Positions 4,053 through 62,010 of a stretch of DNA of 64,000 bases are shown here, in pieces; the first letter of the stretch is position 1, and the number at the start of each line of letters is the position of its first letter. The notes beneath the pieces were generated by a model. It saw only the letters and a list, made by a program, of their open reading frames with translations, had not been told where the DNA came from and did no database searches. This DNA comes from Dioscorea cayenensis subsp. rotundata (taxonomy: Eukaryota; Streptophyta; Magnoliopsida; Dioscoreales; Dioscoreaceae): assembly GCF_009730915.1 (NCBI RefSeq), contig NC_052481.1:19464386-19528385 (forward strand). Direction: 5' to 3'. Position numbers and translations under genes: made by a program.

Positions 4053-4250
4053 ATGCGCGGTTGTTTGAAGAGAGCTAGATGGTCACTGAAGAGGCTAGCA
4101 GCAGCTCCGTGTGGAGCAGAGACCAGGAGAAGGCGTTCGAGAATGCCTTGGCCACTGTCCCGGAGGATAGCAGCGACAGGTGGGAGAAAATTGCTGCTGC
4201 AGTGCCCGGAAAATCCATCGAGGAAATCAAGTGCCACTATGACCTTCTAG
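4053..4250 (+). promoter_or_regulatory. Overlapping upstream ORF of the MYB gene
   Basis: An ATG at 4053 lies 26 bases before the MYB start at 4079 and opens a 65-codon frame in a different phase. That frame runs through the MYB start and stops at 4250. If this ATG is in the mature 5' leader, ribosomes starting there bypass the MYB start. The peptide is Arg-rich and resembles nothing I know, so any role would be translational. The transcript start is not known from sequence. Confidence 0.45.
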
Positions 4251-7200
4251 TGGAGGACATCAATGGCATCGAGTCAGGTCGAGTGCCTGTACCTAGCTAC
4301 AAATCTTCGTCGGAAGGTTCAGCTGACCATGCTAGTGAAGGCGGAAGTGGTAAGAAAGGTGGGCATTCTTCCCATTTACATGGGGATTCCAATCATGGAG
4401 GCAAGGGATCGAGATCGGATCAAGAGCGACGAAAGGGGATAGCATGGACTGAGGATGAGCACAGGTTAATTTCACTACTCTTTACTGGTTTTCCAGTTTT
4501 TCCTTGTGCTTATATAGATAACAACTGTAGAGACAACCAAGTGTGATGTTTCTGCAAATGATTTCAATTGGTTGCATTAGTTTATTTGGGAGTAGTTGTT
4601 GAGCACCTTTAGTTACTTGAATATACAACTATTTGCACAAAAAGTAGGCATGTGCTGCGTAGATCTGAGCATGGAAAACAGCTTATTGCTTTTTAGAAAT
4701 TGAAATCATGGTAGTAAAACTATACTTTTGTTAGGTCCAGTTGAGTTTGAAGCAAACAATGGAAACTTTTTCAAGGTTAATCATATCTATACTTTCTTTA
4801 TGCTTCCCTGTCATGACTTGGTCTTACGTCCCAAGATCACCCTGGGGACTTAAATTTCTCATCCAACTTAGCTTCTTTGCCTCCTTCCCAATATAACTGC
4901 TTCTTAATGCTTTTTTTTTCTTACTTTTGTTTGGCACCATCGTTAGCTAATGGTGGCTAGTTGCTTAATGTTTCATCCTCCTGTCTATTCCTTATTTCCG
5001 ATCTATGACAAATTAGTCATTTGGTTTGAAATGAATTTGTGGTTCTTGTTTGTTAAACTTTCACGAAAGATATTGGCGCTCAAACTTACCATTTATGGAA
5101 GTTGTGTGCTTTAGTAGCTCTCTGCCTCCCTTTGGATTAAATTTATTTTTGGAAATGTTTTTTGTGGGTATTCGAATTGTCACTAGTCTTGGGTTGAAAT
5201 TTTCTATATTAATACCTTGACTTTTAGATTGGCTACTACTTAGTCACTGTCGTGTTCTTTAGATAGGGGAAAAAACATCCACCTATATCGCATGTCAAAA
5301 TATCCGAGTTTCCATGAAATGAATCATAGTAATATGCCACTGTTTACCTGGCTCTAGCTTCTGTCACGAAGTATATCATGTATTGATAATAAATCAGTTG
5401 ATGAGCATGACTACTGTTATAAACAGATGAATGAGTGAATACTAGTGCATTGAAATGCAGAAATGGTATTGCAAGGTTCGCCAACTGAAAAAAAAATTAA
5501 TGGGTTTGATTATCAAATCACTAATTACCAAAAAGAAGAACACAAGAGATATTGGCATGATAAATGTACATAGCGATCAGGTTTGATGAGTGTGTAAATT
5601 CTGTTTGAATTACTCAAAAAAATCTTAGTGATGATTTTGCTTTTCCCTACAGACATCAATGTACTTGCAACTTGTTCTAGTCCTTTTAGAAGGTATGTTT
5701 AAGGTGTCGAAAATGAGTTTTCTTGGGATGCCTATAAAGATAGGAGAATAATGAAGCTGAAATGATCCATAGTATTCTTCAGTTGCTTAGTTTCATTTGC
5801 CACGTTGATAGCTCTTGTAATTTAAAACCGTCGAATGCCCAACCAAAAGCAAAAGTGAGTTTCTGATGCATAAAACTTGGCTGTAGTTGAGTGTCATCTC
5901 TTCTTATTCTCACCGTTATAAATACAAAAAGTGTTTGCTGAATTCATGCTATGATGTTCCAAGTCTTGTGAAGCATAAATAAGTGAATTTTTATTAGAAA
6001 TCTTGGTTAGATGTAGATTGTTGAGCAACATCCTTATCATCATTTATATAGTTACAAACAAAAGCAGCAGCAGCTTAAAAACTCAATAATTTGCTTCTTG
6101 TGTGGATATGGTGGTCCATTTATATTTGCAAGTGCCATGTACCACTTGTCATATTCATGCAACTCAGAAACTACAGCTGAGGGAGTTTCTTATTTGAGTC
6201 CTTTATACTTGTCAGAAAATTGTTTGTGTACCACTCATTACTTTTGACTACCATTTTCCATCAATGGATATCATGATCAGCAATGATTGTGCCTTTTGTT
6301 TTAAACTCATCATAATGTCCAAGGGTGTTTTGATAGAGATTGTTTGGTGTTTCTCTATTGATATCTTTTCTTGACTTATTTGCACAGTTACTGTTGTGCA
6401 TGTCTTTATTATTTTATTGGAAAGCTATATTGACTATTCGCTTAAAGCATTGAAATAAGTCAATAACTTAACTCACAGGTACTGTCTAAAGTTAAATGCA
6501 TAATTGTGATCATTAAATTCTGTTGATGAGTTCATTAATAAATTCGCCAGTATTATTTTTAGCCTTTTAGTTTGCATCATGAGAAAAACTAAGAAGCCAT
6601 TAAATACAATTCCCTCACACATGCCTTAAATTTCTGAAATGATTTTGTAATTCTTTTTTATATTTTACAAGTTTTGTTTTAGTACATGTCTCTTTTGAAA
6701 AGCCATGCTTCAGTTTGATGCAAGAAAAACTTTTTTCAAACATACAGTTCTGGCATGATATTAGAGCCCTTATGAGTGGGGGGATTATTTCGTTGTTGCT
6801 TAGAATTGATCTTGTAATTGTTTGAATTTGAATTTTTTTATTGCTTAAAACTCTCTTTGCTAATAATGAGATTCAGTTATTGACACATTGTTAGCACCTT
6901 CTCAATTACTTATCTGCCTAATCCTCACTGAAACAGGTTGTTTCTTCTCGGCCTTGATAAGTACGGCAAAGGTGATTGGCGAAGCATATCGAGAAACTAC
7001 GTGATATCTAGAACACCTACACAAGTGGCAAGCCATGCGCAGAAATACTTCATCCGTCTGAACTCAATGAACAAGGATCGAAGGCGGTCAAGCATTCATG
7101 ATATCACCAGTGTCGGCAATGGAGATATGTCAGCTCCTCAAGGACCGATCACAGGTCAAGTGAATGGACCGGTGGTAGCTTCAGGAAAACCCGCTAAGCA

Positions 7201-7435
7201 GACCTCTCAACCTCCGCCGGGTCCTCCTGGAGTTGGTGTCTTTGGCACTACTATCGGACAACCAGTTGGGCCTCTAGTTTCTGCTGTAGGCACTCCTGTT
7301 AACCTCCCGGTTCCTGCAGCACCACACATGGCCTACGGGGTTCGGGCTCCGGTTGCCGGAACAGTAGTTCCTGGTGCTCCGGTGAACCTCCAGCCGATGA
7401 CCTATCCTATGCCTCATGCATCTGCCCATAGATGA
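4079..7435 (+). CDS. SRM1: MYB-related transcription factor, SRM1/DIVARICATA type
   Basis: Two coding exons, 4079–4464 and 6937–7435, separated by a 2472-base GT–AG intron, encode 294 aa (885 nt, in frame). Plant relatives (SRM1, MYBS and DIV classes) are nuclear factors of about 300 aa that bind I-box/TATCCA-type elements. The first MYB/SANT repeat covers about residues 10–60 (VWSRDQ…RWEKIA). The second, about 122–170, starts [10 protein letters not shown] and contains SHAQKYF (about 161–167), the hallmark of this class. The intron cuts the second repeat after the Arg of EHR, the junction restoring [17 protein letters not shown] Ser/Gly/His-rich linker joins the repeats and the C-terminus is Pro/Gly/Val-rich. 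SRM1 is the closest match from memory; a paralogue in the same clade is possible. An overlapping upstream ORF may dampen translation. Confidence 0.93.
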
Positions 7436-9505: not shown

Positions 9506-10916
9506 ATTATGTTTTTTGTTTCAACTCATAAACTTAGAATTAAGTTCTTGTAATCAGTATTGGAATTGCCGGCAATTTTTCTCATTGAGGGATTTCAATA
9601 CTTGTCTCAAGATCATGATGTAAATGTATGTCACCGAAATGATTGTTAATGAAACACAAAGTGTTCTTTTTGTTGATTATATCTTCATTTCTGCATAATT
9701 TTTTTCTGTAATTCTTCTTGGAGAATCTGAAATAATAATTTGAGTATATTCAGTATTTGCACTTTATCTTTTCAAACTCCATCTTTTCTTTTTTCACATC
9801 AAAGTTACCTTTCCACCTCCAAATGAAATAAATTAATGACAAGACTTGGTTTTACAGCTAAGTATTGAGTCATGATACAGTATTTCTTAGTCTTTCCAGG
9901 TCATTTGGCAATTCATTTGGTTGTCAAAAGTATTACACAAACTTGAGTGTGTTTGTATTGAATTGAAGTAAATCAAATATAGATACGAAGAGAAAAGCAA
10001 ATGCACCGATAAAGTTTTCTTTTCTGTTTTGCATATTCGATATGTTTTTCTTTTTTCTTTGTAGCTATTGCTTTTGGAGTCACTACTAGTCTCATTTCTG
10101 CTAAGTCAATAAATTTTATTTTTCTTTCTTTTAGTTAAAATGGGGCCAATGTAATACATGTTTGATTTACTACTGCCTTAAGTAGCATTGGAGATCAGTT
10201 AACAACATAGCTAGATTAACATCAATATGGTTGGCTCAAATGGTTGAAGTTTGACTAATTTTAAAAAGTATTTTCGAGTTTAAATTCTTCTCTACGTAAA
10301 AATAATATCCACTGAATGAGATTTATTTTTTTTATAAGACTGTCATTATGTTATCCCAAAAAACCTATAAGTCAGAGACCCAAACCTCCACATATACACA
10401 ATCACGCAAAAAAAATAAAATAAAATTTTTGATCTGCTAATTTCTTAGATGTTAAACTTTAAACTAATCTAAACAAGATATTGGAAGTTCTATAAGAAAG
10501 TAAACCTTTCTCAATGGGTGTTATTTTGCATACATAAAAGTACAAATTCAATAATATTATTTGATTTTGTGAACCAAGCATCTATCACTTAGGTCAATCT
10601 CTTGCTAATATCAAAGGATTTATTAGATGATTTATGAGAGTAACTTGCAGTATTACATCATAAACTTACTGAATTTGAACATTAATCTATAAGCCTATGT
10701 ACTTACCTGTGCTGAATTGAGTATTGCCACTTCACACATTTAATCTAATTTGTAACTAAATTGGATAACATAAAATATTTATTAAATATTGATAATGTGA
10801 GGGTTAAGTCACACACACACACAACACATGAGTTATGGTAGATAATATAAATTTTTTGTTAAATATTAATAAGGTGAGGCTTGAATCACACATAATGCAT
10901 GGAATATAATGAATTT
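9506..10916. other. Spacer with possible SINE trace
   Basis: AT-rich spacer between the two GEM-like genes. Around 10225–10300 a stretch resembles a decayed tRNA-derived promoter, with a TGGCTCAAATGGTTG-like A box and a TCGAGTTTAAATTC-like B box. It is too diverged to delimit. A short CA run lies near 10811. No gene is seen. Confidence 0.4.
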
Positions 10917-12996: not shown

Positions 12997-15066
12997 CTAT
13001 GAAGAATCTTTGCAACAGGTGATCACGCAATCATTTAAAAAGGTAGTGAGTTGAGTAGTATAGAGGACTGGATGGTTGCGAAAATGGTCGACATGAGGTG
13101 AGGACACAAAATCACAAGCTCTTACCACATGTCCAGCTCTTCTTTGCCTCTCAATGAATGTTTCCACAGATTTTGCCGGAATGACTCTGTCAGCAGAGCT
13201 GTAAATATACAGTTGTGGGCATTTTGGTTGTTCTGATGATAGAACTTCCAATACATCAGATAGCCTCCTGTCAAAAGGGCAAAAAGTAAAAGTTAAGATG
13301 GATATTTCATAGATATAAGGGTGAAAACAGTCATATATCCACTGCATATTATAAATTCTAGGTATGTCACACACATTGAGCTGATAGAAAGCCCAGTAAA
13401 AATCCTAATAAAGCAACATCTACTAAGTTCCAACTACATCTTATGGTGATATTAGGACCACATCTACATGTGTTTTCAATAGGTTCAAACATGTCTATGA
13501 CCATTTTAGTTATATTTTCATAATGTACATCAAACCATATCATGCACAACTGAAAAAATGCATCGAAGTTTCACCACCTACTAATGTTTACTAATCTTAG
13601 CAAGCACAAAGCTCAGGTGTCAGGATTGAATGCATGTAGCTGCTAATTCAGAATCATAGAATGACAAAATCTGGAAAAAAAAACAGGATACCTGTTAATG
13701 CTTGGAAGGTTCAAAACCACCCCAAAGAATCTCTCAAGAATGGTCAGCAGAGCAGTTTCTGCAAGTGCTGGTTTTTGATCAAATTTAGAATTGGAATGGA
13801 CCATCATGCTCAGCCCAGCACCATTTGAAACCAACCCACCCTTTGTTGCTACACTCTGCTTCTTCAAAAAAATGCAGCAGAGAAACCGGACGCCCAAAAC
13901 CTAGAATGAACATTTTTGAAGTTGTTTAGTTTACATAAAATGACTTCAAAGGTTGCCACTTTCTATACTATTAAAACAAGAATACATCTGACTAATGAGA
14001 CAATTTCCAACAACAAGATACATATGAAAAAGAATCTACTTCGACTTGAGTTCTTCCATAAGAAAATGGCATCACATCAACAGAGTAAAAACAAGCCTTG
14101 TTAACAAAAGCACTAGGAACAATGTGATTAAAAAGAAGAGCATCGAACCAATGCTGTGAACACTAACAAAATTATAATTTTAACCTGCCACGACTAAATT
14201 CCCAAGATATACTATTTAATAAAGTAAACATTAGACAGAGTTCAGCATTATCTCTCACCTGAGGGTCAGGAGCAGCAACAGGTGCAGAGTCCACAATGCA
14301 ACCTTTGATCTTCCCCATTAATGAAGGATCATTCTTCTTAAACTTCTCCAATAAAACTCCATATCTGTAGCAAGTTCAACAAGAAATCCAAATCAATACT
14401 GCAACAAAATTCACTACATAAAAAAAAAACCACCAAAGAACACAACACTCACGTCAACCAGCCAGTATTACTAAACGTATGAAAGACCAGTTTTTTCCCA
14501 TCCTCTTCTGCAACACAACCAGCCAAGTGCTCAGCAAACAAATCAAGATTCTGCTCCACCTTCCCCCCAACCTTGTACCCAATGATATCTCCCATGGGAA
14601 AGGTGAAAGTAATAGCATGAAACCCTCTCGCAGTGTACCATTCAGCATACTTGTTCAAATGCTTCTGCTTTGCACCCAACCACCCCAGCAAAACCACCAC
14701 CGTCTGAGACTTAGCCAAAGAGCATTCAGACTCCCCCAAACTCGGTGCCGGCAAGTGCCACTGATACATAACATCATCCGCCGGCGAAGAACGGATCGCT
14801 GGACCAATTTCCTGCGGCTTCGCAAGCTTAGCATACTGATAAGGAGCGATGAGAACCGGAAGGGAGGCCCTTGTTAGGTTGGAAATGGAAATCCGGGGAA
14901 ACCAAGAAGGAGACGCAGAGAAACCCAGTGAAGGCGAGGGAGATGGCTGTGTTTCGGCGGCTTTTGGACCAGGGAACCTCTCAGGGAGGTCAGTAGACAC
15001 GGCGGCAACGGCAACGGCAGCGATTGCGGAGAGAGGACGGTGGAGAGTCGTGGAGAAAGACGCCAT
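12997..15066 (-). CDS. DUF829/TMEM53-type alpha/beta hydrolase
   Basis: Four exons, read on the minus strand (15066–14453, 14364–14259, 13900–13692, 13267–12997), join in frame to give 399 aa (1200 nt). The N-terminal 60 residues are rich in Ser, Ala, Thr and Arg (MASFSTTLHRPLSAIAAVA), compatible with a plastid transit peptide. The hydrolase core starts near SQTVVVLLGWLGAKQKHLNKYAEWY. Candidate catalytic residues are the Ser in FHTFSNTGW (nucleophile elbow), the Asp in YIYSSADRVIP and the His in SSPHVDHFRNHP. The family is conserved in plants and animals, but substrates are poorly known. The last exon holds both the Asp and His motifs. A multiply frameshifted duplicate lies at 51287–53344. 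Gene identity is confident; localisation and activity are inferred. Confidence 0.9.
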
Positions 15067-15466
15067 TAGAGAAGCTTAGATGACCTCGTGATGTTGGAGA
15101 CGATGATCTAACCAACAACCTGAAGGAAATACAGATATGCTCGTCATGTGTTCGATTAAATGCGTCAAAAAAAGACGGATAGGACTCCGTCGCATTCAAT
15201 AATGAATAAACTCCCGCCTAAAAAGCCACGCGGGGTCGAGATGGTCAAAAAAGACTAGCAAGGGTAGTGTTGTAATTTCACACGCACCGAATCGTGAAAA
15301 CGTGATTGGGAAACGGACAGGCTGTTTTGACAGCCCGTCCCAACTGCATCCACACGGGCCCACCAAGACGGGTTTTTGTTTTTCTAAAATAAAATGAATT
15401 ATTAATTATTATTACTGAAAAAAAAGAAAATTAATAATAAATAATTTCGGGAAAAAAGAAACGCAC

Positions 15467-39889: not shown

Positions 39890-40654
39890 TAATAATAATA
39901 AGTGGAAATTGCAAAAAACCCTTTAAGTTTTAGAAATCGCTAAAACACCCCGTTAGTTTTTGCAATCCCCAAAAACCCTCCTTTTTAAAAGTCTATGTTT
40001 TTCAAACCCCAAACCCTTGTAACGGATGCTGAACGGAGTGAGTTTCAAATTTTTGGACGAAAATGCCCTGCATGGGGAGTCGTGGGCTGCAGCCCATCTC
40101 GGCGATTTGAGAGGAAGTGGGCGTTTTCCGTAGGGTAACCCCGAGAGACAATTTATCGGAGCCGTTTAATTGCTTTTTCTCAACTCACGCCTTCGCCTTT
40201 TTCCATTTCAAGCTGCCTCCGAGTTGTCTCTACCTGCAAGCCTCCTGAATTGGCATTTCATCGCCTTTTTCCCTTTCCACCCAGTATCTCGAAGGAGAAG
40301 TCCCCTCAGCAACTAGTTGGCATTTCATCGATTGCAATCTAAGGTATTGAGTATGGTTTTACGTTAACCTGCTCACATAAAAGAAAGATTTTTGCTTTGT
40401 TTTTCAGGCTCCCTGCTTTTTGTTGGAAGATATCAAGTCTCGCAGGGGATTTCTACTGGGGTTTTCGTTAGTCTCAGAGGAGATTTCTCAGCTAGGGTTT
40501 TGTTTTGTTTTTGCATTTTTCAGATGTATACACTTTCATCGAAATAGTTTTTTTCGATTGTTATGATTTGTGTAATATTTATAATGTACATTTCCGCTTC
40601 GCTTTGATATGGTTGCAGCTTTTACAAATAAGGTCGACGCTTTAAGAAACGAGA

Positions 40655-40810
40655 TGTTACGGGCTTAACATTTGTTGTCTCTGCTCAAGTATTCTCGCCT
40701 CTGCTTTAACAAAATGGGTCTCTGCTTAACATTTTATATCTCTGCTTTAATAACCGAGAGTTTACCGCTTAAAAACCTTATATTTCCGCTTAAACTTTTG
40801 GTCAATACCG
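40655..40810 (+). repeat. 20-bp motif array 1 in the MULE
   Basis: About seven spaced units of GCTTAA/GCTTTAA, mostly 20–22 bases apart and usually preceded by CT or CC, lie just upstream of the Ulp1-like coding stretch. Unit interiors vary and are T/A-rich. Confidence 0.7.
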
Positions 40811-41715
40811 CATGTCGAATGTGTTGTTATTGTCAGCAGCTTTGTGATTACGGGCGGTCAACCTAGTTAATGGGCGCTGCTATTTGACACCGGCCAGGAG
40901 ACCTTAGTCAACTGAAAGTTACCACGACCCTCGACTAACCCGGGAGATTATTCAAGGACACCGCTTTGCAGCTGCTCAATCGAGTCGAAGCCATATACCA
41001 AGAGAGGGCCCTTCTTGATTCTCTTTTGCAAAGCATCGACGGTCGCACCAATAAATTCAGGATCGGGGAAAGCTCTCACGAGTTTTCAGACCCTCAAGAT
41101 GTGGCCCTCGTTTCTGGTCTCTGCGCTATGCGGCGACGCAGTTGGTCTTTCGTAAGAAGAAAAACCGGTCAGCGTCAAGGGCTGTATCTATCAAAGACCC
41201 TACGAGAGACACAGAGACTCCATCAAGAGCACTCAGCGCAACTTGTTCGACAGAGGGAGAAGAAGATAATTTTGTCAAACTCCCTCGATGGTGACTCATG
41301 GGGCATGTCCCTCTTCCCAAATACATCATGCTCGGCTCGAATCGGATCGCTGATTACGCCGATGATCTATCGCCCATGGGGCGATACGCACGGGCGCTAG
41401 CGACGCACATGCCGGGCTTTTGCATGGAGGATATTCCACTAGTTTGCCGCCCGAGCGCAAGATAGATGCGCGGGAAGAAGACCAACACGAGGTACATTAA
41501 GGGTTGCTCGGTCGCGCTTAACGCCTCTGGTTTTACGAGATGACCGTAACGGGAAGAAAGTCCGCTTCAGGAAGATCCCAAGGATGCTGCATACTGTGAA
41601 AGTACTTACCTAAGGAAGCGACTCGGTAGAAACGAGCTTGTCATCGTCAATGGAAAAGAGGTAATAAATCATGGACAATGTTTAACATAAGTCTTTAATG
41701 TTTAAACATTTTATT

Positions 41716-41850
41716 TAGCGCTTAACTTTAGTATTTACCGCTTAACTATTATTTATACCGTTTAAATATTTTGTTCTCCGCTTAATTATATTCTATAACG
41801 CTTTAAATATATAAACACTGCTTAAATATAGTTTTTATAGTTTAAAAATG
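41716..41850 (+). repeat. 20-bp motif array 2 in the MULE (intronic)
   Basis: Six consecutive units start CGCTTAAC, CGCTTAAC, CGTTTAAA, CGCTTAAT, CGCTTTAA and TGCTTAAA at exactly 20-base steps, then a decayed unit. It lies between a GTAATA donor and a GTTAG acceptor of the plus-strand gene. Confidence 0.85.
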
Positions 41851-43054
41851 AATGATCTCACTGAAATTGTTCGTTTATATATGTTAGTTTCCCCGAAATG
41901 GTTCCTAGCAACGTCAAGAAGAAATATTTGTCAGGGGCCAACCGACGGATGGATGCCATCGCTCCCGAACCACTTGCTCAAGGCAAGATGAGAGTGCAGC
42001 CTCTATCGCGTGCGCTACTGGACGCCTGCTCTCCTACTTCCACCCCACCACGCAAGACGCATTCCTCGACGCCGAGAAGCCCTCCCCTACCCCTAGCAGA
42101 TCGCAACAACCCCCTACCACGACAACGATGCGGGCCCTCCGACCACGGCACTCCTCCGACCGCGGGCACTTTCACCGTGACATTGGGCGAAGATGTCACC
42201 GCAACTCTTACGCAGTACGCCAGATATTGACGACCGAAGTTTCCTCGGCTCGCTCGCGTGGAGGCGCTGAAGGACGTTTCACAACCTACCGCGCCTATCC
42301 CTCGAAAAGAACTCGAAGCACCCGTGACCTAACGAGGCGTCTGGGAATTCGACTACCACGTACATCATCCGGGAAGGTCATTCCAAGGCGCCACATTCAA
42401 GAGACTTGCGAAAAAGAGGAGAACAATATCGCTTCGCTCCACCGCCGTACCGACGACGAACACATAGAACACCATCGCTCGGACGCTGCTATCGAGTCTC
42501 GCCGCTGATGATATGGACACGGCGCGGAGGACATCGTAGATGATGTGGCCGCTGTCACGGCTGAGAAGGTCGCCGACTCTCTCTCGATGAAATCGCCGAC
42601 CGCGGAACCGGGCCGCCGAGATTAGCGGCATCAAAGATGGACACAATCCTCAAGATCAAGAACAGTTAAGGAGCGGTCTCCCAACGATGCCGTTGTCATC
42701 GGCCACGCGCTGAGAAGATCGTCGAATCCGCTGCGCCGTGGGCCGCGCCGGCCGACAAGATCGCAGCCCAAGCCGTACACAATCCCACAACAAGAACAAC
42801 CATGTAAGGATGTGTCTCGCAGCTGATGCTGCCGCCATCGTCCCCCTGCATCGAAGGAAGATGTCGACGAAGACCCCGACCGAGCAACGAGAGAGATGAT
42901 CAAGGCCAATCAAAAAATCGATACGACGTGTTCTGAAAACTTTTTATTCAAGAAGAAGAAATGGGTCGGGTCTCGAGTCGTTTTAACAAATACGAGCGAG
43001 GAGTCGATGAGGATCTTCCTCAACCGCTCTACTGGATCGGTAAGTGTAACGCTT

Positions 43055-43230
43055 TTGACGCTATTGTTTAAAAAGGTTTCTTATAGTGTTTAACTATTTC
43101 CTAATAGTGTTTAATACCTTTTATGTTATCATTTAAGTTTTCTACTTATCGCTTAATTATATATAATATCATGTAACAATTGATAATATCATTTAAATAT
43201 TTACAATATGGTCTTATTATATCTCGTTAT
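43055..43230 (+). repeat. 20-bp motif array 3 in the MULE (intronic)
   Basis: About nine units (TTGTTTAA, GTGTTTAA, GTGTTTAA, CATTTAAG, CGCTTAAT, CATGTAAC, CATTTAAA and others) at about 20–23-base steps follow a GTAAGT donor of the plus-strand gene. Confidence 0.8.
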
Positions 43231-44214
43231 CGCTTAATCCCTCAAAGACCGCCGTGTGGAAGAACGACGACTCGCAGCCACCACACGCCGATGCATTATA
43301 CACGCGCTGAGGGGAAGGAGACGGTCATCGATGATGTGATGGACGCCAGATGCATCATACAAAAAGTCACGAGCAAAGAGCCATATCCTCACAAGAGCGC
43401 GCTCCATCACCGTCGATCATTATACTGCTTATGTCAAAGCAGTGACGACGCACTATGACACAATTATGGCTATGATCGATGCTGCACGAACCCCGCATGA
43501 AGTTCAAATTGTCATCCTCCCGATAATCATGAATGGCCACTTCCATGTCGTCGTCCCCGACAATGATAAACAAGAATACAGTGATTATTCTTCATGTCCG
43601 GGCACGATAAGGACGCTATTGGACATGGTAAGTTCTTTTAATTACGTCCGATTAATATCTCGCTTTGGTATTTAAATCGGTATTCTAATCTCGACTCTGC
43701 ATATCTCGACAATGAATCTATTCGACCTTTCGTGTCGATATGGAGTTAGGCGAGCTCGACGACTGCAAAGTACCCGCTGCAAGCACGCATACGTAAAACC
43801 CCACGCCTAAAAACAAGGAAGCGCCGATCGCTACCGCCCACGCTACGCGGTTTATCGAGCACCATCGTCAGGGGTGAGAAGTTACGGCCACCGCAGCATG
43901 AGCGCTCCTTACCTTAGATTACGGTATGTTACCCGCGATACTTAAGGAGGGAGGCATACCTGCGTCCACGACAAAGGGGTGTCGCATGCTGGGTTAAATT
44001 TTTGTTTTTCAATAACATGTCCTCAGATATCTCGACCGACAATTTTGTTTTCAAATGTAAATATGGACAAATTCAATTCATTGTTTTTCGTTCAAGAACA
44101 TGACTTGTATATCTTAATGTAAATTTTTGTTTGTTTTTGAATTGCAGAAAAGGTGTTAAATTCCATCTGGTTTTATTTCATTGTTTAATTTACGCTTGTA
44201 ATTGTGTACATTTC

Positions 44215-44400
44215 ACTTTCATTGTTTAAATATACTATATATCGCTTTAAACATCGGGCTTTTAAATATTTCAAAAATACAAAACATGTACCCGCTTAAA
44301 AATAACACCGTCTCTGTTTAAATAAAACGCACTCATTGTTTAAACATCGACTGAAATATTTCAAATTACAGCAGTATCCGCTTAAAATAACAACGTCCCG
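44215..44400 (+). repeat. 20-bp motif array 4 in the MULE
   Basis: Looser units (TTGTTTAAAT, CGCTTTAAAC, CCGCTTAAAA, CTGTTTAAAT, TTGTTTAAAC, CCGCTTAAAA), still plus-oriented, between the convergent genes. The spacing is about 21 bases where clear. Confidence 0.6.
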
Positions 44401-45064
44401 TCGTAAATACATTCAATTCGTCAGAAAGAGTAAGAGTTTAAACGTGAAAGGTTCCCATCAATACACAATGCTTTCCCCGTCATCGCTTCTATTAACAATG
44501 CCTAGTCGGCGACGCTTTCATTACAAGATCGCCGATCGCGACCGATCCTCGGGCACGGTCGCGAATGTAACTCGCGGACATCAAACGCCATCGACTCGAT
44601 CCTCTTTTCGCCCAGGCCGCCCTAGGTCGCTTTTCTAGTCACAAAGGTCGCAGAACGAAGCTCACGATTTTCGCCCTCAAGGCCCGCCATCGCTCGGGTA
44701 TGGGGAATATAGCTTCCTTTGTACGCCCAGCCTTTGTAATTGTCGACGCGAAGTACCCGCTAATAAATCGACGTACGCTGGTGTTCTGCTCGCATTATTG
44801 CCGCCGCTAAGCATGTTTGCAAGGGATACCATAAACTCGCCACCTCTCGACACGAACAAGTTCCGATGGCGAGATCCACGTAGTTGCACGCATTGGTCGA
44901 TCACTCGTAACGATCATCGACACAACGACCAACACGAAGATTTCGGCCGCCCTCAACAATGATCTCTAACTTCGAATGTATGTCTGGGCATAAGTAGCTC
45001 TCCCATTTGGTCGCTGCTCACGGGCTACATAACATGCGGCATCAACTCGAACCCTGCAAATAAG

Positions 45065-45215
45065 GTTAAACAAAGACAATGATGGTTAACATTGGTCAAC
45101 ATGTTTAAACATTATCGTAATTATTTAAACGAAAATGATTAATATTTAAAGTCGCATAAGTGTAATTAAACAAAAGATTGAGAATGTTTAAAGGGTAATA
45201 CTAAATGTTAAGTGT
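45065..45215 (-). repeat. 20-bp motif array 5 in the MULE (intronic, inverted)
   Basis: Units of GTTTAA/CTTTAA type read on the minus strand (seen on plus as TTAAAC), at roughly 20-base steps. It lies next to a minus-strand acceptor (TTATTTGCAG at about 45052–45062), inside the transposase gene. Confidence 0.65.
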
Positions 45216-46559
45216 AAAACCAACATTCGCAGACACCTTTATGGAGTCGACCATTTTCGCCACCCGAGAAACGACGAGCTTCCTCGATCCAAGCATCGAA
45301 TCGACTCACGACGCTCGAATACATCTCACCCCCAACGATCACCTCCGAACGTATAATTCGACCAATGTGCCATATCCGATTTATTAATCAACCAGCTGAT
45401 GAGCTTCGGGTGATATGGCTCGCAGCTCATTCACTAGTATCATCGAAATCTTTTAGCCGTGGATGCCCACGCACGCTGGAAGCATATGTACTCAAGACTC
45501 TCCCTCAACGCCTTCCCAAGTCCGACATCGGGCTTTCATAAAATTGGCCTCCAAATGTCGAAGACAAGACGCATGTGGCGAAGAAGGGAAGACTCGCAAT
45601 CGCGCTCACAAGGCCCTCGACTGTCCGACTACTGAAGGTAATTATCTCATGATAATCTCCACCCTCGTGATAAGGCATCGCCTAACTTAGATACGAACTC
45701 AAGTCCAATCGCATCGGGTCTCGCTGGTCGACTCATACCGAAGGCGACGGGAAAAACCATTGTTACCATCTTTCCCTCGTGGCACCCAAAGAGTGTACCC
45801 TCGATATTTTTCCAAGGAGGGTGGTACCATCGAGAAAACAGCTAGCCGCCCCGCAAGCCCTCGAATCCCACAATACACGCTACCGAAAAGAAAAAGAATG
45901 CACGCTTAAAAACGATCACCGCTCTCTCCACGATCGCAACGCCGCCGGATTTCGTCTCTCACTCATCTTATCCACATACCAAAGCAAACAATCATAGTCG
46001 GAGATGTCACCGCTGCCGAGGATTACCCGCACGCTCTTTTTCCCAACCAAGCCTCGCTAGTATGGTATGTGGACACCATGTTCCCGCAACATGTCCTTCC
46101 GAATGTCGACGGCCTCAGCATAAGGGACGGTCCCTCGAGCTTCCCGAATCACTCGCGCGCTAACCCATTTTTCGACGCTTTCGACGCTGACGTCAACCTA
46201 CGCCACCACCGCAAGTGCGACGGGTCGATTGTCTTGATTCTCGAAAGTATTTTTTTGTTATACTCTTTTGATGCACGAAGGCGCTAACGACAACCATCTG
46301 CAGCAAGATTCCACACCACTCGACTGTTTTTCGCTCTTTTATGAATTTGAAGTCAAAATTCCTTTTGATCGCATGATTTCGAGCACATCCCTCGAAAATG
46401 TTCGACACCGTCAAAACGTCTGTCCAATATCCAACGACAACACTTCGTAATGATCCGACGAGGAAGGAAGACATCCCACACCGCCGTGGTCACCATGGGG
46501 ACGAATGGGAGCACTCGCAATCTCGAATTCTCGCCAACACTTCACCAAATGAAAAGATC

Positions 46560-46705
46560 AATACGTTAAGCTGAGAGTATAATGTTTAAGCGATAATGAC
46601 AATAGTTAAACGTTAAATTAAAATACTTAAGCAATTAACTAATAACGTAAAGGACTAGTATAATATGTTAACCAAATGACTTTTGATATATTTAAACAAT
46701 AAACT
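46560..46705 (-). repeat. 20-bp motif array 6 in the MULE (intronic, inverted)
   Basis: On the plus strand, units end in TTAAGC, TTAAGC, TTAAAC, TTAAGC, GTAAAGG and TTAACC at 20–21-base steps, so the motif CGCTTAA-type runs in the minus direction. A GTAAGTTCC donor of the minus-strand gene lies just upstream (about 46745). Confidence 0.8.
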
Positions 46706-47354
46706 GACCCCTGCATAACCGGAATAATTAAAAGAAAAGGAACTTACAACGAGTAAACCTCGCTTTTCATTAGGATTCTAGCAACGGGCACATTTTCCTG
46801 CTCTCGACGACAAGATCAACTACAAAGACATTTGAAGATGGAACGGACGTGACACATCCTACTGAAGTCAACATCATTTTCGATCAGCAAACCGCTTTTA
46901 TATCCATCCGTGTGACTGAACTTAACCCTCGATAAGAGAAACTTCGAGACCCCATCGCCACATATCTCGCCTAACACCAACTCCCAAGAAGTCTCGAGCC
47001 GGAACATTAGCACTCTTCCCTCCCCCGTCAATCTAGCAATACCACAAAAACTTCCATAATATATCGGTCGAAAACCAAATCGTACATAAAACCAAAATGA
47101 AATGAAGAACAAAAAAGAAGACGAAGAAGAAGAAGTAGAAGATGTAAAGAACAAACAAGCAAATCGAAAAGGCAAACAAAAATCGACAGACTGTATGACA
47201 TAGAGGTTAGGGACTAGACGTGATGTGATTGGGCGGTATTTTTTTCCCTCCATCCCAAGGGCAAAAAGGGAAATATATGTCACCGTCATGAGGAAGACAT
47301 ATCGTCATCGCTCGAATGAAAGTTTCTCAACACAACATGAGTCTCCTCGTAAAC

Positions 47355-47680
47355 GCTAAGCTTTTTTTATGTTTAAACAGTATACATATAGTGTTTAAAA
47401 AAACGGTTAATTGTTTAACTAAAGTCTATATCATTTAAATAATATGTTATCGTTTAAATCGAATGCTTTCAACGACATCGCATCAAGATGAGTACCTCCC
47501 CGGGTCACCGCTTAAAACATCTTTACGTATTTTCTTAAACACCGTCTGTCATTGTTTAAAGAGTAACTCGAGTAGTGTTTAACTTTTTCTATTATTTACA
47601 CCGCTGTCATTGCTTTTTAAAAGAGTAATCTTTTTCTTAAACACCGCTGTCACTGCTTAAACATATTTACGTATTTTCTA
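47355..47680 (+). repeat. 20-bp motif arrays 7–8 in the MULE
   Basis: Units GTGTTTAA, TTGTTTAA, ATCATTTAA and TCGTTTAA at exactly 20-base steps (47378–47460) are followed by looser CGCTTAAA/TTCTTAAAC units to 47680. They are plus-oriented but lie upstream of the minus-strand transposase, outside any coding block I can name. Confidence 0.75.
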
Positions 47681-47994
47681 TTGCTTACAACGACGCTCTT
47701 TTGCTTCCCACATCGCTTTTGTTTTTACTAGGTCTATGCTTTAAATTTCGTAAGTTCACAAACCAAATAAGCTTGTTTCGCTTTTATTTATAAAAAGATT
47801 TACAACATTTACAACGTCCCGCTCTGGACTTTGACACTCACGACTGACCGTGATAACGAAAACAAGTGTCTCAGACATCTCAACGCTCACACGGTCTAGA
47901 CAACATGCGCATCAACTCTGAACCCGCACAACGCACAACATTAAAAAAGGTTAAACAACACACATTCATGAAAAACGACTATTAATCAATGTGG

Positions 47995-48860
47995 TATGGC
48001 TCTGACTTAAACGAAGATCCCGATAGTTAAACACAAAACGTAATAGTTAGTACAATCGACGTAATGTTCTTAAAACTGGTAATGTAAAAGTCTCATGCGA
48101 TAAATATCAACCCCGCCTTAAAAGGATGTTTCCCGATCTCCTCCTCTAGAGAATCCTCCGCAATCACGAAATACGTGAAAAAAATTTCTTTTCTTACCCA
48201 AGTCGAAATGCTCGCTTAATCGCTTTCGCCTTCCATCCACACGTCAAGAATCCTCTCGCATTCGTGCAATTATGAGAGCATTTCGACTCAAGGGTGAAAA
48301 AGATAGTTTAACTTGTCATGCGGATTACGGCTAAAACGATTCTCAAGATAAGGAAGAAGGTTCACGAAACATCCTTTCTGTGACAGAGTGGTCATTCATG
48401 ATAGAGGGTAGTCCATGGAAGAGGAGGAGGAGGAGGAGGATGATGAGGACGACTGAGGAGTGGTCGTCCACTGGGATGGGTTCTTTTCTGCTATTTATGT
48501 GTGAATTCCACAAGCACGTCGACTCTTCATATCCGGAAAAAAGTTAAACGACAAATGCGCGACATCGATCGATGAGAACGAATCTGTGTTCGAGAAATTA
48601 TGTTACCGCGCATAAATTTTTAATGCCGCCATTAATTTTGCATGCACGGATACCATAATCCCTGCCACCGCCACGTGCCACCGCCAAAGAATTCAGATCA
48701 AACGAAAAAATCACCGCTTTACGCAGAGACTTTGAGAATTTACATCGCTATTATGAATAGTTATACATGTAAATATAACGTTAAACCCGAGATGTGAAGT
48801 ATTACACTGATACTGACAATTATTAAACATATTAGTAAAATATTTAAACGTTAAACCAAG
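47995..48860 (-). repeat. Scattered inverted 20-bp motif units in the MULE right arm
   Basis: Two patches, 47995–48090 and 48765–48860, have TTAAAC/TTAAACG words spaced about 20 bases apart, that is minus orientation. Between them (48100–48760) is coding-like but unrecognised sequence with a GAGGAG run near 48421–48450. Confidence 0.5.
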
Positions 48861-49578
48861 CTAGAAAAGTCCCTTCAAAAAGGCTCGAACACGATGCGAT
48901 TTCGCGCTTTTCTTTTCCCACCATTTTCGTGCTAAAAATGGGATTTCACAACATGGACCCATTCAAGTGAACTGTAGGGGGTAAAAGTAGTTAAACACTA
49001 ACGGAAGGGTTGTCCGAGTGTGCAAAAAGTAGGAGGGTTTTGGAAGTTTTGAAAAATTACGAGTAATCAAGTAATTTTCCCTAATAATAATAAGCGAAAA
49101 AACAAGAGTTAATTAATTTATCATTTCAACCATCAAGAACAGTCAACACAGCAAAAAGCAAACTCAAAACACACAGGAGCACTTCAACTAACAAACCAAT
49201 AACTAACATGCAGTTTTGGACCCAAAAGCCTCATCGAACGCTGGTAAGTAAAATAAAGTCCTATCATTTGTAGGATATGATAAAAGATTCATCTTTCCTT
49301 TATATCCCAATTGACCTCCTCCTTATTTCAAGGAAAAAGCCTAAACTAAACATGAAAGTTCCCATAGAAATTTCACCCTCAAAAGATACAAATATTGTTG
49401 TAACACCACACATGAACTTTTAAGAGACTTAATAGCAAAGGATTCAAGGATTTTTTTTCTTTTGTCATCTGGACGTCATAATATGCCCTTTTTATGCCTG
49501 GTGAGATGATGATGACACTAAAGTTTAAAGTGGTAATTCACTTGATGCGTTTTGTTTCTTTTAGTAAAGAACTTAGTA

Positions 49579-51286: not shown

Positions 51287-53344
51287 CTACGTAGAATTTT
51301 TGCAACAGGTGATCACGCAATCGTTCAAAAAGGTAGTGAGTTGAGTAGCATAGAGGACTGGATGGTTGCGAAAATGGTCAACATGAGGTGAGGACACAAA
51401 ATCACAAGCTCTTACTACTTGTCCAGCTTTTCTTTGCCTCTCAATGAATGTTTCCACAGATTTTGCTGGAATGACTCTGTCAGCAGAGCTATAAATATAC
51501 AGTTGTGGGCATTTTGGTTGTTCTGATGATAGAACTTCCAATACATCAGAAAGCCTCCTGTTAAAGGGGCAAAAAGTAAAAGTTAAGATGGATATTTCAT
51601 AGATATAAGGGTGGGTGAACTGTGAACAATCATATATCTACTGCAAAGTATAAATTTTAGGTATGCCATACACATTGAGCTGATAAAAAGCCCAGTAAAA
51701 ATCCTAACGAAGCAACATCTAATAAGTTCCAACTACATCATATGGTGATATTAGGACCACATCTACATGTGTTTTCAACCATTTTAGTTATATTTTCATA
51801 ATGTACATCAAACCATATCATGCACATCTGAACAAATGCATCGAAGTTTCACCCCACCTACTAATGTTTACTAATCTTAGCAAAGCTACAAAGCTCAGGG
51901 TGTCAGGATTGAATGCATGTAGCTGCTAATTCAGAATCATAGAATGACAAAAATTTGAGAAACAGGATACCTGTTAATGCTTGGAAGGTTCAAAACCACC
52001 CCAAAGAATTCCTCAAGAATGGTCAGCAGAGCAGTTTCTGCAAGTGCTGGTTTTTGATCAAATTTAGAATTGAATGGACTCATCATGCTCAGCCCTAGCA
52101 CCATTCGAAACCAACCCACCCTTTTGTTGCTACACTCTGCTTCTTCAAAAATGCAGCAGAGAAACCTGGACGCCCAAACCTAGAATGAACATTTTCAAGT
52201 TGTTTAGTTTACATAAAATGACTTCAAAGGTTGCCACTTTCTATACTATTAAAACAAGAATACATCTGACTAATGAGACAATTTCCAACAACAAGATACA
52301 TATGAAAAAGAATCTACTTCGACTTGAGTTCTTCCATAAGAAAATGGCATCACATCAACAGAGTAAAAACAAGCCTTGTTAATAAAAGCACTAGGAACAA
52401 TGTTATTAAAAAGAAAAGCTTCGAACCAATGCTGTGAACACTAACAAAATTATAATTTTAACCTGCCACGACTAAATTCCCAAGATATGCTATTTAATAA
52501 AGTAAACATTAGACAGAGTTCAGCATTATCTCTCACCTGAGGGTCAGGAGCAGCAACAGGTGCAGAGTCCACAATGCAACCTTGATCTTCCCCATACGAA
52601 GGATCATCCTCTTAAACTCTCCAATAAAACTCCAGATCTGTAGCAAGTTCAACAAGAAACCAAAATCAATACTGCAACAAAATTCATCTATATAAAAAGA
52701 ACCACCAAAGAACACAACACTCACGTCAACCAGCCAGTATTACTAAACGTATGAAAGACTCAGTTTTTCCCCATCCTCTTCAGCAACACAACCAGCCAAG
52801 TGCTCAGCAACAAATCAAGATTCTGTTCCACCTTCCCCAATCTTGTACCCAATGATATCTCCCATGGAAAGGTGAAAGTACAGCATGAAACCCTCTCGCA
52901 GTGTGTGTACCATTCAGCATACTTGTTCAAATGTTTTCTGCTTTGCACCCAACCACTCCCAGCAAAACCACCCACCGTCTGAGACTTAGCGCAAAGAGCA
53001 TTCAGACTCCTCCCACACTCAGGCGCCGGCAAGTGCCACTGATACATAACATCATCCGCGGCGAAGAACGGATCGCTGACCACTTTCCCGCGGCTTCGCA
53101 AGCTTTGCATACTGATAAGGAGCGATGAGGACCGGAAAGGAGGTCCTGTTAGGTTGGAAAATGGAAATCCGGGGAAACCATGAAGGAGACGCAGAGAAAC
53201 CCACCATGAAGGCGAGGGAGATGGCTGTTGTCTCGGCGGTCTTTGACCGGGGAACCTCCTCGGAGGTCAGTAGACACGGCGGCAACGGCAACGGCAGCGA
53301 TTGCGGGAGAGAGGACGGTGGAGAGTCGTGGAGAAAGACGCCAT
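51287..53344 (-). pseudogene. DUF829/TMEM53-type hydrolase, frameshifted duplicate
   Basis: Duplicate of 12997–15066 with the same four-exon order. The last exon (51557–51287, 271 nt, same length) is intact and keeps SSADRVIP and SSPHVDHFRNHP. Exon 3 has indels near 52072–52100, exon 2 is shortened (CCATACGAAGG versus CCATTAATGAAGG), and exon 1 has many one- to three-base indels, so its reading frame changes repeatedly. Most differences in exons 1–2 are small indels rather than substitutions, which is unusual for ordinary decay and may partly be sequence error. As written it is non-functional. Confidence 0.85.
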
Positions 53345-54342
53345 TAGAGAAGCTTAGATGATCCGTGATGGTGAAGATGATGATCCAACCAACAACCTGA
53401 AGGTATGTAAAGATATGCTCGTCATGTGTCTCGGATTAAATGCGTCAAAGAAAGACAGTATATGACTCCGTCGCATCTCAATAAAACCCCGCAAAAAGTG
53501 CACGCGGGGTCGAGCTTAGTCATTAGCAAGGGTAGTGAGGTAATCTCCACACTGCACCGAAACGCAATAAACGTGGTTGATACGGACAGGCTGTCAGGAT
53601 TTCGGCGTTGACAGCCCGTCCCAACAGCATCCACGCGGGCCCACCAAACGGATTTTATTTACCTAAATAAAATTAATTATCAATTATTATTATTAAAAAG
53701 GAAGAGAAAATTAATAAATAAACTAAATTCGGAGAAAAGGGAAACGCAAACGAGAAATTAAGAATAACAATAAATTAGACTGATATTAAAATAGGAGGAG
53801 AAGATAGAGAGAAATAAAAATAAAAACAAAAATTATAATATATATTATTGCAGAACGGGGGACGAGGGAGATGAAATTAAAATTAAATTAAAGAGACATT
53901 AGTACTCCTTCAACTGTAAACCCGACAGAAGATGCGCGTGGACCAAGTAAAAAGAACAAATTGGAAAACCTAATAATTGAACCAATGCGCAAGAGAAAAA
54001 CAAACAAACCCAATAATTTGCAAGAAATTTACCAAAATCGAAGAAGAGGAGTGGAGGAATTTGAGGGAATTGAAATTGATCGATGTGATACCTTCTAAAT
54101 CAGACAACGAAACCTCGATTCGGCGAGAAAGATTGGGAAAAACGGAGGACAAGGGAGACGAAATCAGGAATGGGGATTTTAAGAAGGATGAGATAGAGAC
54201 GTGATGGTAGCGTGAGTTTCCGTTGATTCGAATTGGGGCGCTTGTGTGGTCACCGATCCGCGAGAATATGCTTTTTGGCTCTCTTTGGCGAAGTGACGTA
54301 ATCGTTTCATTGATCGGATACCAGCCGTCTGATCTCTTTTTC

Positions 54343-60516: not shown

Positions 60517-61010
60517 ATAACAAGTTGGTTTAGCTAAACCGCAGCCCCGTGAAGTAATAAATTTGATTAGATCTGGAAATGCCCGGTACTTCTTCCCGTA
60601 ATTTATTTACCATATGGTTGCCCGTTCGCTGATCCATGTATTTCCAAAAGCCCGGCATTACTACTTACTGCTTAGCGGCATCATGGCTAAAAATCATGAA
60701 CATAAAGACGGCACTCAATTAAAACACTTGACCACAAATATGCGGTGGTATGTCGCTCTCAGCAGATGCCAAAAGGTACCATTGTACCCAATTTGTAATC
60801 GATTTCTGTAACAAGTTTCAAACAAATTCTAGAATAAAAAGCAAAGGACAAAGGGGCAGACGAGGTGCGACAGGTCCCAACCATCAACACCTCGTGAACC
60901 ATCGTCACATCATAGTTGCTTAATATCAGGGAATGGTTTGCATCCCTATTTTGTGGAAAGTTTTGGCGTTTCGCCGGAGCAGGCCCACACTGCCATTTGT
61001 AATCTCAAAC
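60517..61010. other. Unassigned flank of the assembly gap
   Basis: No feature is recognised. Short plus-strand frames are not family-like. Confidence 0.4.
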
Positions 61011-62010
61011 NNNNNNNNNNNNNNNNNNNNNNNNNNNNNNNNNNNNNNNNNNNNNNNNNNNNNNNNNNNNNNNNNNNNNNNNNNNNNNNNNNNNNNNNNN
61101 NNNNNNNNNNNNNNNNNNNNNNNNNNNNNNNNNNNNNNNNNNNNNNNNNNNNNNNNNNNNNNNNNNNNNNNNNNNNNNNNNNNNNNNNNNNNNNNNNNNN
61201 NNNNNNNNNNNNNNNNNNNNNNNNNNNNNNNNNNNNNNNNNNNNNNNNNNNNNNNNNNNNNNNNNNNNNNNNNNNNNNNNNNNNNNNNNNNNNNNNNNNN
61301 NNNNNNNNNNNNNNNNNNNNNNNNNNNNNNNNNNNNNNNNNNNNNNNNNNNNNNNNNNNNNNNNNNNNNNNNNNNNNNNNNNNNNNNNNNNNNNNNNNNN
61401 NNNNNNNNNNNNNNNNNNNNNNNNNNNNNNNNNNNNNNNNNNNNNNNNNNNNNNNNNNNNNNNNNNNNNNNNNNNNNNNNNNNNNNNNNNNNNNNNNNNN
61501 NNNNNNNNNNNNNNNNNNNNNNNNNNNNNNNNNNNNNNNNNNNNNNNNNNNNNNNNNNNNNNNNNNNNNNNNNNNNNNNNNNNNNNNNNNNNNNNNNNNN
61601 NNNNNNNNNNNNNNNNNNNNNNNNNNNNNNNNNNNNNNNNNNNNNNNNNNNNNNNNNNNNNNNNNNNNNNNNNNNNNNNNNNNNNNNNNNNNNNNNNNNN
61701 NNNNNNNNNNNNNNNNNNNNNNNNNNNNNNNNNNNNNNNNNNNNNNNNNNNNNNNNNNNNNNNNNNNNNNNNNNNNNNNNNNNNNNNNNNNNNNNNNNNN
61801 NNNNNNNNNNNNNNNNNNNNNNNNNNNNNNNNNNNNNNNNNNNNNNNNNNNNNNNNNNNNNNNNNNNNNNNNNNNNNNNNNNNNNNNNNNNNNNNNNNNN
61901 NNNNNNNNNNNNNNNNNNNNNNNNNNNNNNNNNNNNNNNNNNNNNNNNNNNNNNNNNNNNNNNNNNNNNNNNNNNNNNNNNNNNNNNNNNNNNNNNNNNN
62001 NNNNNNNNNN
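61011..62010. other. Assembly gap of 1000 N
   Basis: Exactly 1000 undetermined bases, most likely a placeholder of fixed length, so real distance across it is unknown. Long frames crossing it are artefacts. Confidence 0.99.

Follow-up and report, generated by a model that had tools for sequence, protein, structure and literature searches.

Why should a short motif recur at steps of close to 20 bp through the introns and other non-coding parts of a transposon? The question is raised by a stretch of 64,000 nucleotides of the Dioscorea cayenensis subsp. rotundata genome (NC_052481.1, positions 19,464,386 to 19,528,385; hereafter the window, in whose numbering positions are given), which carries a 9,180-bp Mutator-like element (MULE) without long terminal inverted repeats (TIRs) at 39902-49081. 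A first-pass annotation, made from the letters alone, had noted arrays of a CGCTTAA-type motif inside this element and had placed it at 39903–49081, of which the right bound holds and the left one moves by one base. The element, whose two genes are defined by homology, shares its arrays, with their period and orientation, with diverged families and with gene-less derivatives. We consider that the arrays are probably DNA-level cis sites, being the phased targets of a DUF1985-containing, VANC-like anti-silencing protein encoded by the element itself.

Spacing and density of the motif in the window element

The recurrence near 20-base steps that had been proposed was borne out by an autocorrelation-type analysis of G[CT]TTAA sites between 39903 and 49090, in which the same-strand distances peak at 20, 40, 60 and 80 bp. 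Twelve same-strand pairs lie exactly 20 bp apart, against at most one in any of 1000 dinucleotide shuffles made within 300-bp blocks, and 20 pairs fall at 19-22 bp, the shuffle maximum being 2. The sites are also about five-fold more numerous than in the shuffles (67 in the element; shuffle mean 14.2, maximum 28), and their density per kb (4.35 on the plus and 2.94 on the minus strand) is some four to eight times that of the remaining window (0.57 and 0.69). Phase was analyzed by shifting each site at random within 15 bp; over 2000 such trials the in-phase close pairs averaged 17.3 and never exceeded 32, the observed number being 55 out of 85. Chance or AT-richness as the origin of the spacing is ruled out by the dinucleotide shuffles.

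The arrays differ in regularity. For array 2, six units exactly 20 bases apart had been reported at 41718–41838; the spacing stands and the count does not, as there are nine relaxed-motif units (41679-41839), with every step being 20. A second run of exact steps, claimed at 47378–47460, is not found, the units at 47370-47451 stepping by 22, 20, 20 and 19. In the arrays other than array 2 the steps are mostly 19-24 or around 40 bp, with irregular ones of 6-8, 50, 56, 65, 78 and 83 bp as well. Scanning the window with a position weight matrix (threshold 7) gives 24 sites inside the element (2.6/kb) and 39 elsewhere (0.7/kb), a weak signal which results from the decay of this copy. When majority sequences of the array segments were built from family copies, a clear gain in regularity was obtained for array 1 only, the majority of its ten copies showing YGCTTAA at steps of 20, 20, 21, 22 and 20; the copies were too few for arrays 4 and 10 (2 and 1), and three for arrays 7-8.

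The unit and its spread through the genome

Comparison of 134 units, drawn from the window element and from six loci that belong to other families, results in the consensus gTTTyCRCTTAAawTT. Units were taken as words with at most one mismatch from CGCTTAA and a neighbour at about 20, 40 or 60 bp, and since they were picked by this word the core of the consensus is partly set by the choice, which does not apply to the T-rich flanks. Relatives of the element keep the step of about 20 bp: the best common period, over 280 pairs from eight sequences, is 20.3 bp, close to two helical turns, the spacing in the L loci being partly ascertained. Across the 584-Mb host genome the pattern CGCTTAA-N13-CGCTTAA occurs 1042 times (485+557) and the reversed pattern 3 times (0+3); this count concerns the 20-bp spacing alone and, as the counts in the window, is free of the way in which the loci were chosen. 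Within the element and 20 loci of the same genome (designated by L numbers), perfect CGCTTAA pairs up to 130 bp apart amount to 241 on the same strand and 0 on opposite strands. Also, relatives with little or no alignable DNA retain the unit, the period of about 20.3 bp and similar array positions.

At L028:7182-7395 there is a ten-unit array with steps of mostly 21-22 bp rather than 20, which indicates that families differ somewhat in their pitch, though all stay near two turns of the helix.

Boundaries, family copies and gene content

The window element is flanked by a 9-bp target duplication, TAATAATAA, at 39893-39901 and 49082-49090, which lies within the 8-11 bp range of VANDAL-type MULEs. 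Its ends share, by eye, about 12 imperfectly inverted bases and give only short weak matches in an end-versus-end blastn, so its TIRs are at most short and degenerate, as is characteristic of VANDALs. In four of six copies whose ends were compared (L009, L012, L013 and L014) AT-rich 9-bp duplications were identified by eye; the one of L024 is imperfect, and the ends of L010 could not be read for this purpose. In a blastn comparison with an initial set of 20 loci, nine align to the element in main blocks of around 80-89% identity, four more at around 67-78%, and L022 and L023 in short stretches only, while no match to the element was obtained for L016, L018, L020, L026 and L027. One end of L022 matches the left end of the window element, and L005 holds L022-like stretches at steps of about 490 bp which contain motif arrays; the end match makes L005 and L022 look like non-autonomous derivatives.

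Homology to relatives reveals two convergent decayed genes, a Mutator transposase on the minus strand and a gene with a DUF1985-like domain on the plus strand. Both are disrupted by many small indels in the window copy, and the gene content is read from relatives such as L020. The L020 transposase matches the Pfam families DBD_Tnp_Mut (2.8e-17), MULE (2.1e-15) and SWIM (1.4e-6), and the convergent gene of this locus gives a match to DUF1985, under the Pfam cut-off, which speaks for a VANC-like gene since VANC proteins are shown with this domain in Hosaka et al. 2017. Both genes of the window element are collinear by tblastx and tblastn with those of L020, L023 and L027, and its transposase is so with that of L018 too. 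The Mutator-type transposase gene expected of a VANDAL is thus present through the L020 domains and this collinearity, and the MULE identity first suggested is supported by the transposase homology together with the target duplication. The 3' exon of the plus-strand gene looks Ulp1-protease-like by eye, from its putative catalytic residues; no Pfam peptidase match to it was found in the window frames and the scanned parts of relatives.

Orientation of the arrays

Plus-gene introns 2 and 3 and transposase intron 2 of the window element are predictions, based on splice sites with homologues in relatives and on the exon matches to these, and each appears to be mostly filled by an array. The assignment of arrays 2 and 3 to plus-gene introns, pointing plus, is supported by splice sites homologous in L020, and arrays 5 and 6, within the transposase gene, do point minus; the exceptions remain arrays 7-8, as had been noted, since they point plus, against the transposase.

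We have extended the analysis to eight elements (EL, L014, L018, L020, L023, L027, L029 and L031), delimiting the intervals manually on the basis of exon matches; as some of the eight are relatives of one another, the counts are not independent. The motif is found 70 times in sense and 7 in antisense in the introns of the DUF1985 gene, 50 and 7 times in transposase intron 1, 29 and 5 times in intron 2, and 12 and 2 times ahead of the DUF1985-like exon. Of the intergenic motifs, 34 run with the DUF1985 gene and 7 against it. Upstream of the transposase there are 41 in sense and 32 in antisense, and 5 and 15 for a stricter word. Considering arrays of at least three units, the sense rule expected for introns is evident: all 25 that lie in or beside introns are sense and none is antisense, including two just before the DUF1985-like exon, where no intron is shown, and 19 of the 25 intervals hold at least one, the scoring having omitted the L018 intron-2 interval (no motif) and a 17-base stub in L020. 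Such arrays are 5 sense and 0 antisense between the genes, and 3 and 3 upstream of the transposase. The non-coding regions hence hold the same-orientation tandem arrays of a short motif that characterize VANC targets. The intronic sense orientation would most simply reflect a constraint from splicing, because sense units are T-rich and their core is devoid of AG, whereas the antisense core reads TTAAGCG.

Gene-less derivatives

Gene-less elements of about 0.5-0.6 kb are present in L016, L008 and L026 (L002 and L003 being the same place as L026); they consist largely of array, whose length differs in each. One end of L016 and L026 matches L020 and L023 at their ends on the transposase side, and the other end matches L023:8870-8935, which lies ahead of a second DUF1985-like piece (9570-9998) and presumably represents the opposite end of an adjacent copy. 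No exon of the two genes finds a match in L016 or L026. By eye, 9-bp duplications flank L016 and L026, and L008 not clearly. As these derivatives have neither genes nor introns, the array cannot serve splicing there, and its retention favours a role at the DNA level over one in splicing.

Proposed role of the arrays and alternative explanations

In the mechanism that we propose, sites of about 12-16 bp are repeated at about two helical turns, so that adjacent sites are exposed on one face of the helix, where cooperative binding of the proteins could occur. Their density and phasing would set the element apart from scattered single motifs. The DUF1985-containing protein would bind the motif and its binding would remove DNA methylation from the non-coding parts, reactivating both genes; acting in trans, it would also open the gene-less derivatives that retain the array. 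Work on Mu-like transposon anti-silencing in eudicots (Sasaki et al., EMBO J, 2022) reportedly covers VANC proteins with DUF1985, DUF287 or Ulp1 domains, whose targeting is said to depend on the sequence of the motif, its density and its helical periodicity, with non-autonomous VANDALs being targeted too. Of the two options left by the first-pass annotation, protein binding at about two turns would be the one retained, and a role in splicing is weakened by the gene-less derivatives and by the intergenic and terminal arrays.

A number of observations weigh against the proposal of a VANC-like protein and its phased targets. With one mismatch allowed, the element and the 20 loci give 1023 same-strand and 242 opposite-strand pairs, and a reversed control word gives 64 same-strand pairs; the L loci were chosen for holding one 20-bp motif pair, which makes their spacing partly ascertained, and L004, a genome match, has no array of at least three units. 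Conservation of the core in the decayed copies of the family equals that of the linker (0.929 against 0.931; arrays 1-3, nine to ten copies), so that these copies give no evidence of constraint or selection. The Pfam results are weak as well: a Pfam scan of the window element in three frames per strand, with stops as X, returned no useful match (only DUF2797, at 0.08), the convergent gene of L020 is broken and matches DUF1985 with E=1.9e-6 and 28.4 bits, under the Pfam cut-off of 35.1, and that of L023, broken as well, does so with E=1e-3 and 19.5 bits, under the same cut-off, with PMD scoring better (2.7e-4). No DUF1985 match was found in the scanned parts of L027, and no DUF287 in the six window frames and the scanned parts of L020, L023 and L027. 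Finally, one motif is common to families with strongly diverged proteins, when the motifs of VANC21 and VANC6 differ from each other in PMC5735166.

Other explanations can be considered. The arrays could be sites for the transposase or for a host factor of transposition instead of an anti-silencing protein, which would agree with the retention of both terminal sequence and array by the non-autonomous derivatives, since parts required in cis should be kept; this is however unlikely, since the arrays are mainly intronic and kilobases away from the ends, and since similar arrays of VANDAL21 are VANC sites by chromatin immunoprecipitation (ChIP) and electrophoretic mobility shift assay (EMSA), as presented in PMC5735166. 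A role at the RNA level, in which protein-bound intronic elements control the splicing or export of the element transcripts, would account for the sense orientation of every one of the in- or beside-intron arrays and for their presence in most such intervals, but we regard it as very improbable given that 0.5-0.6 kb derivatives keep arrays of differing length and that the arrays upstream of the transposase are evenly split. Least probable of all is a functionless turnover of ordinary tandem repeats in AT-rich intron DNA, which suits the equal conservation of core and linker in decayed copies and the variable array length but not the persistence of core and 20-bp step beside varying linkers, within arrays and across barely aligning families, nor the strand coherence of the perfect word and the retention of the array in minimal derivatives.

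Going beyond the VANC-like reading, we tentatively raise the rather unlikely possibility that the one motif with a pitch of about 20 bp, found in several deeply diverged MULE families and in gene-less elements of this genome, constitutes a common ('public') anti-silencing code used by many families, unlike the fast-diverging private codes of Arabidopsis, and that the strict intronic sense rule may mean a transcription-coupled reading of the arrays.

Features of the window

The positions of the features of the element are collected in Table 1.

Table 1. Genes, introns and motif arrays of the window element.
Feature	Position	Strand	Evidence or remarks
Whole VANDAL-like MULE	39902-49081	none	starts GTGGAAATTGC, ends AGTAATTTTCCC
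Array 1, seven relaxed units, ahead of DUF1985-like exon	40638-40793	+	
Decayed plus-gene exon, DUF1985-like in L020	40940-41660 (approximate)	+	L020-exon tblastn E=1.5e-5, tblastx
Predicted plus-gene intron 2, mostly filled by array 2	41661-41887	+	donor and acceptor homologous in L020
Predicted plus-gene intron 3 with array 3 (43065-43237, steps 22, 21, 22, 20, 40, 41)	43040-43247	+	
Plus-gene 3' exon homology	43258-43594	+	L020-exon tblastn E=5.1e-13
Array 4, intergenic between the convergent genes, along plus gene	44182-44441	+	
Transposase exons 2 and 3 (decayed), separated by intron 2	44508-46415	-	L020-exon tblastn, E down to 3.4e-15
Predicted transposase intron 2 with array 5 (units 45214-45072)	45054-45236	-	intron position as in L020
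Array 6, in transposase intron 1 (flanked by exons 1 and 2)	46566-46700	-	
Transposase exon 1 homology	46831-47070	-	tblastn E=6.4e-12
Arrays 7-8, terminal non-coding, against transposase direction	47370-47743	+	
Arrays 9-10, weak terminal units, few and irregular	47957-48857	-	

Elsewhere in the window, a direct duplication relates 13003-15465 to 51293-53748, about 38 kb apart, with 90.5% identity over 2.5 kb and a 73% stretch after it; both duplicates hold part of one gene, the second being degenerate by eye. The open reading frames at 4079-4546 and 6932-7435 look, by eye, like a gene for a transcription factor of the SANT/MYB type, in which a SHAQKYF motif is seen. A run of N is found at about 61009-62010, being either a gap in the assembly or sequence that was withheld.

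Comparison with known systems

The first-pass annotation knew of no described family of such intronic arrays in MULEs, which does not hold in view of VANDAL21 of Arabidopsis, whose arrays are described as VANC sites. According to Hosaka et al. 2017 (PMC5735166), YAGTATTAY is bound by VANC21 both in vivo and in vitro (ChIP and EMSA), the motif arrays lie in the same orientation in introns, in upstream or intergenic DNA and in terminal DNA, and VANC21 causes loss of DNA methylation; DUF1985 and, for Arabidopsis VANCs, DUF287 are shown in these proteins. The VANC6 motif is there AGTTGTCC/AGTTGTAC, and it is present too in AT9TSD1, which is described as unrelated to VANDAL. Other sources report that regions of the VANC-target type are also targets of RNA-directed DNA methylation (Sasaki et al. 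2023, PMC10398659), that VANDAL TIRs are missing or short and degenerate and MULE target duplications are of 8-11 bp (PMC6446971), and that direct repeats of a non-autonomous element are possibly VANC6 targets (PMC12312487). On a CGCTTAA-type motif nothing was found in the literature searched, the long result lists of which were partly covered.

The window element resembles VANDAL21 in being a MULE with a transposase and a second gene, here putatively of the DUF1985 type, and in carrying a short motif in same-orientation arrays within introns, between genes and in terminal DNA; it shares with VANDALs TIRs that are absent or short and degenerate. The differences concern the motif, which is YAGTATTAY there and gTTTyCRCTTAAawTT here, the period of 20.3 bp measured here, the sharing of the motif by diverged families here, and DUF287, present in Arabidopsis VANCs and not found in the frames and parts scanned here. 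The VANDAL6/VANC6 and AT9TSD1 case, from the same paper, is alike in its non-coding tandem motif arrays and in targets reaching beyond the coding family; however, AT9TSD1 is unrelated to VANDAL, whereas the gene-less elements here carry L020/L023 terminal sequence.

These results extend what appear to be target arrays of the VANC type to another plant genome, with a motif unlike both Arabidopsis motifs considered here, a pitch of about 20.3 bp and one code across diverged families and minimal derivatives. It can now be tested if phased arrays are a general address for transposon self-demethylation in plants, and if codes can be shared. The kind of system is already known from the VANDAL/VANC pairs of Arabidopsis; what this case would add is the motif, the host, the sense rule and the use of one motif by diverged families.

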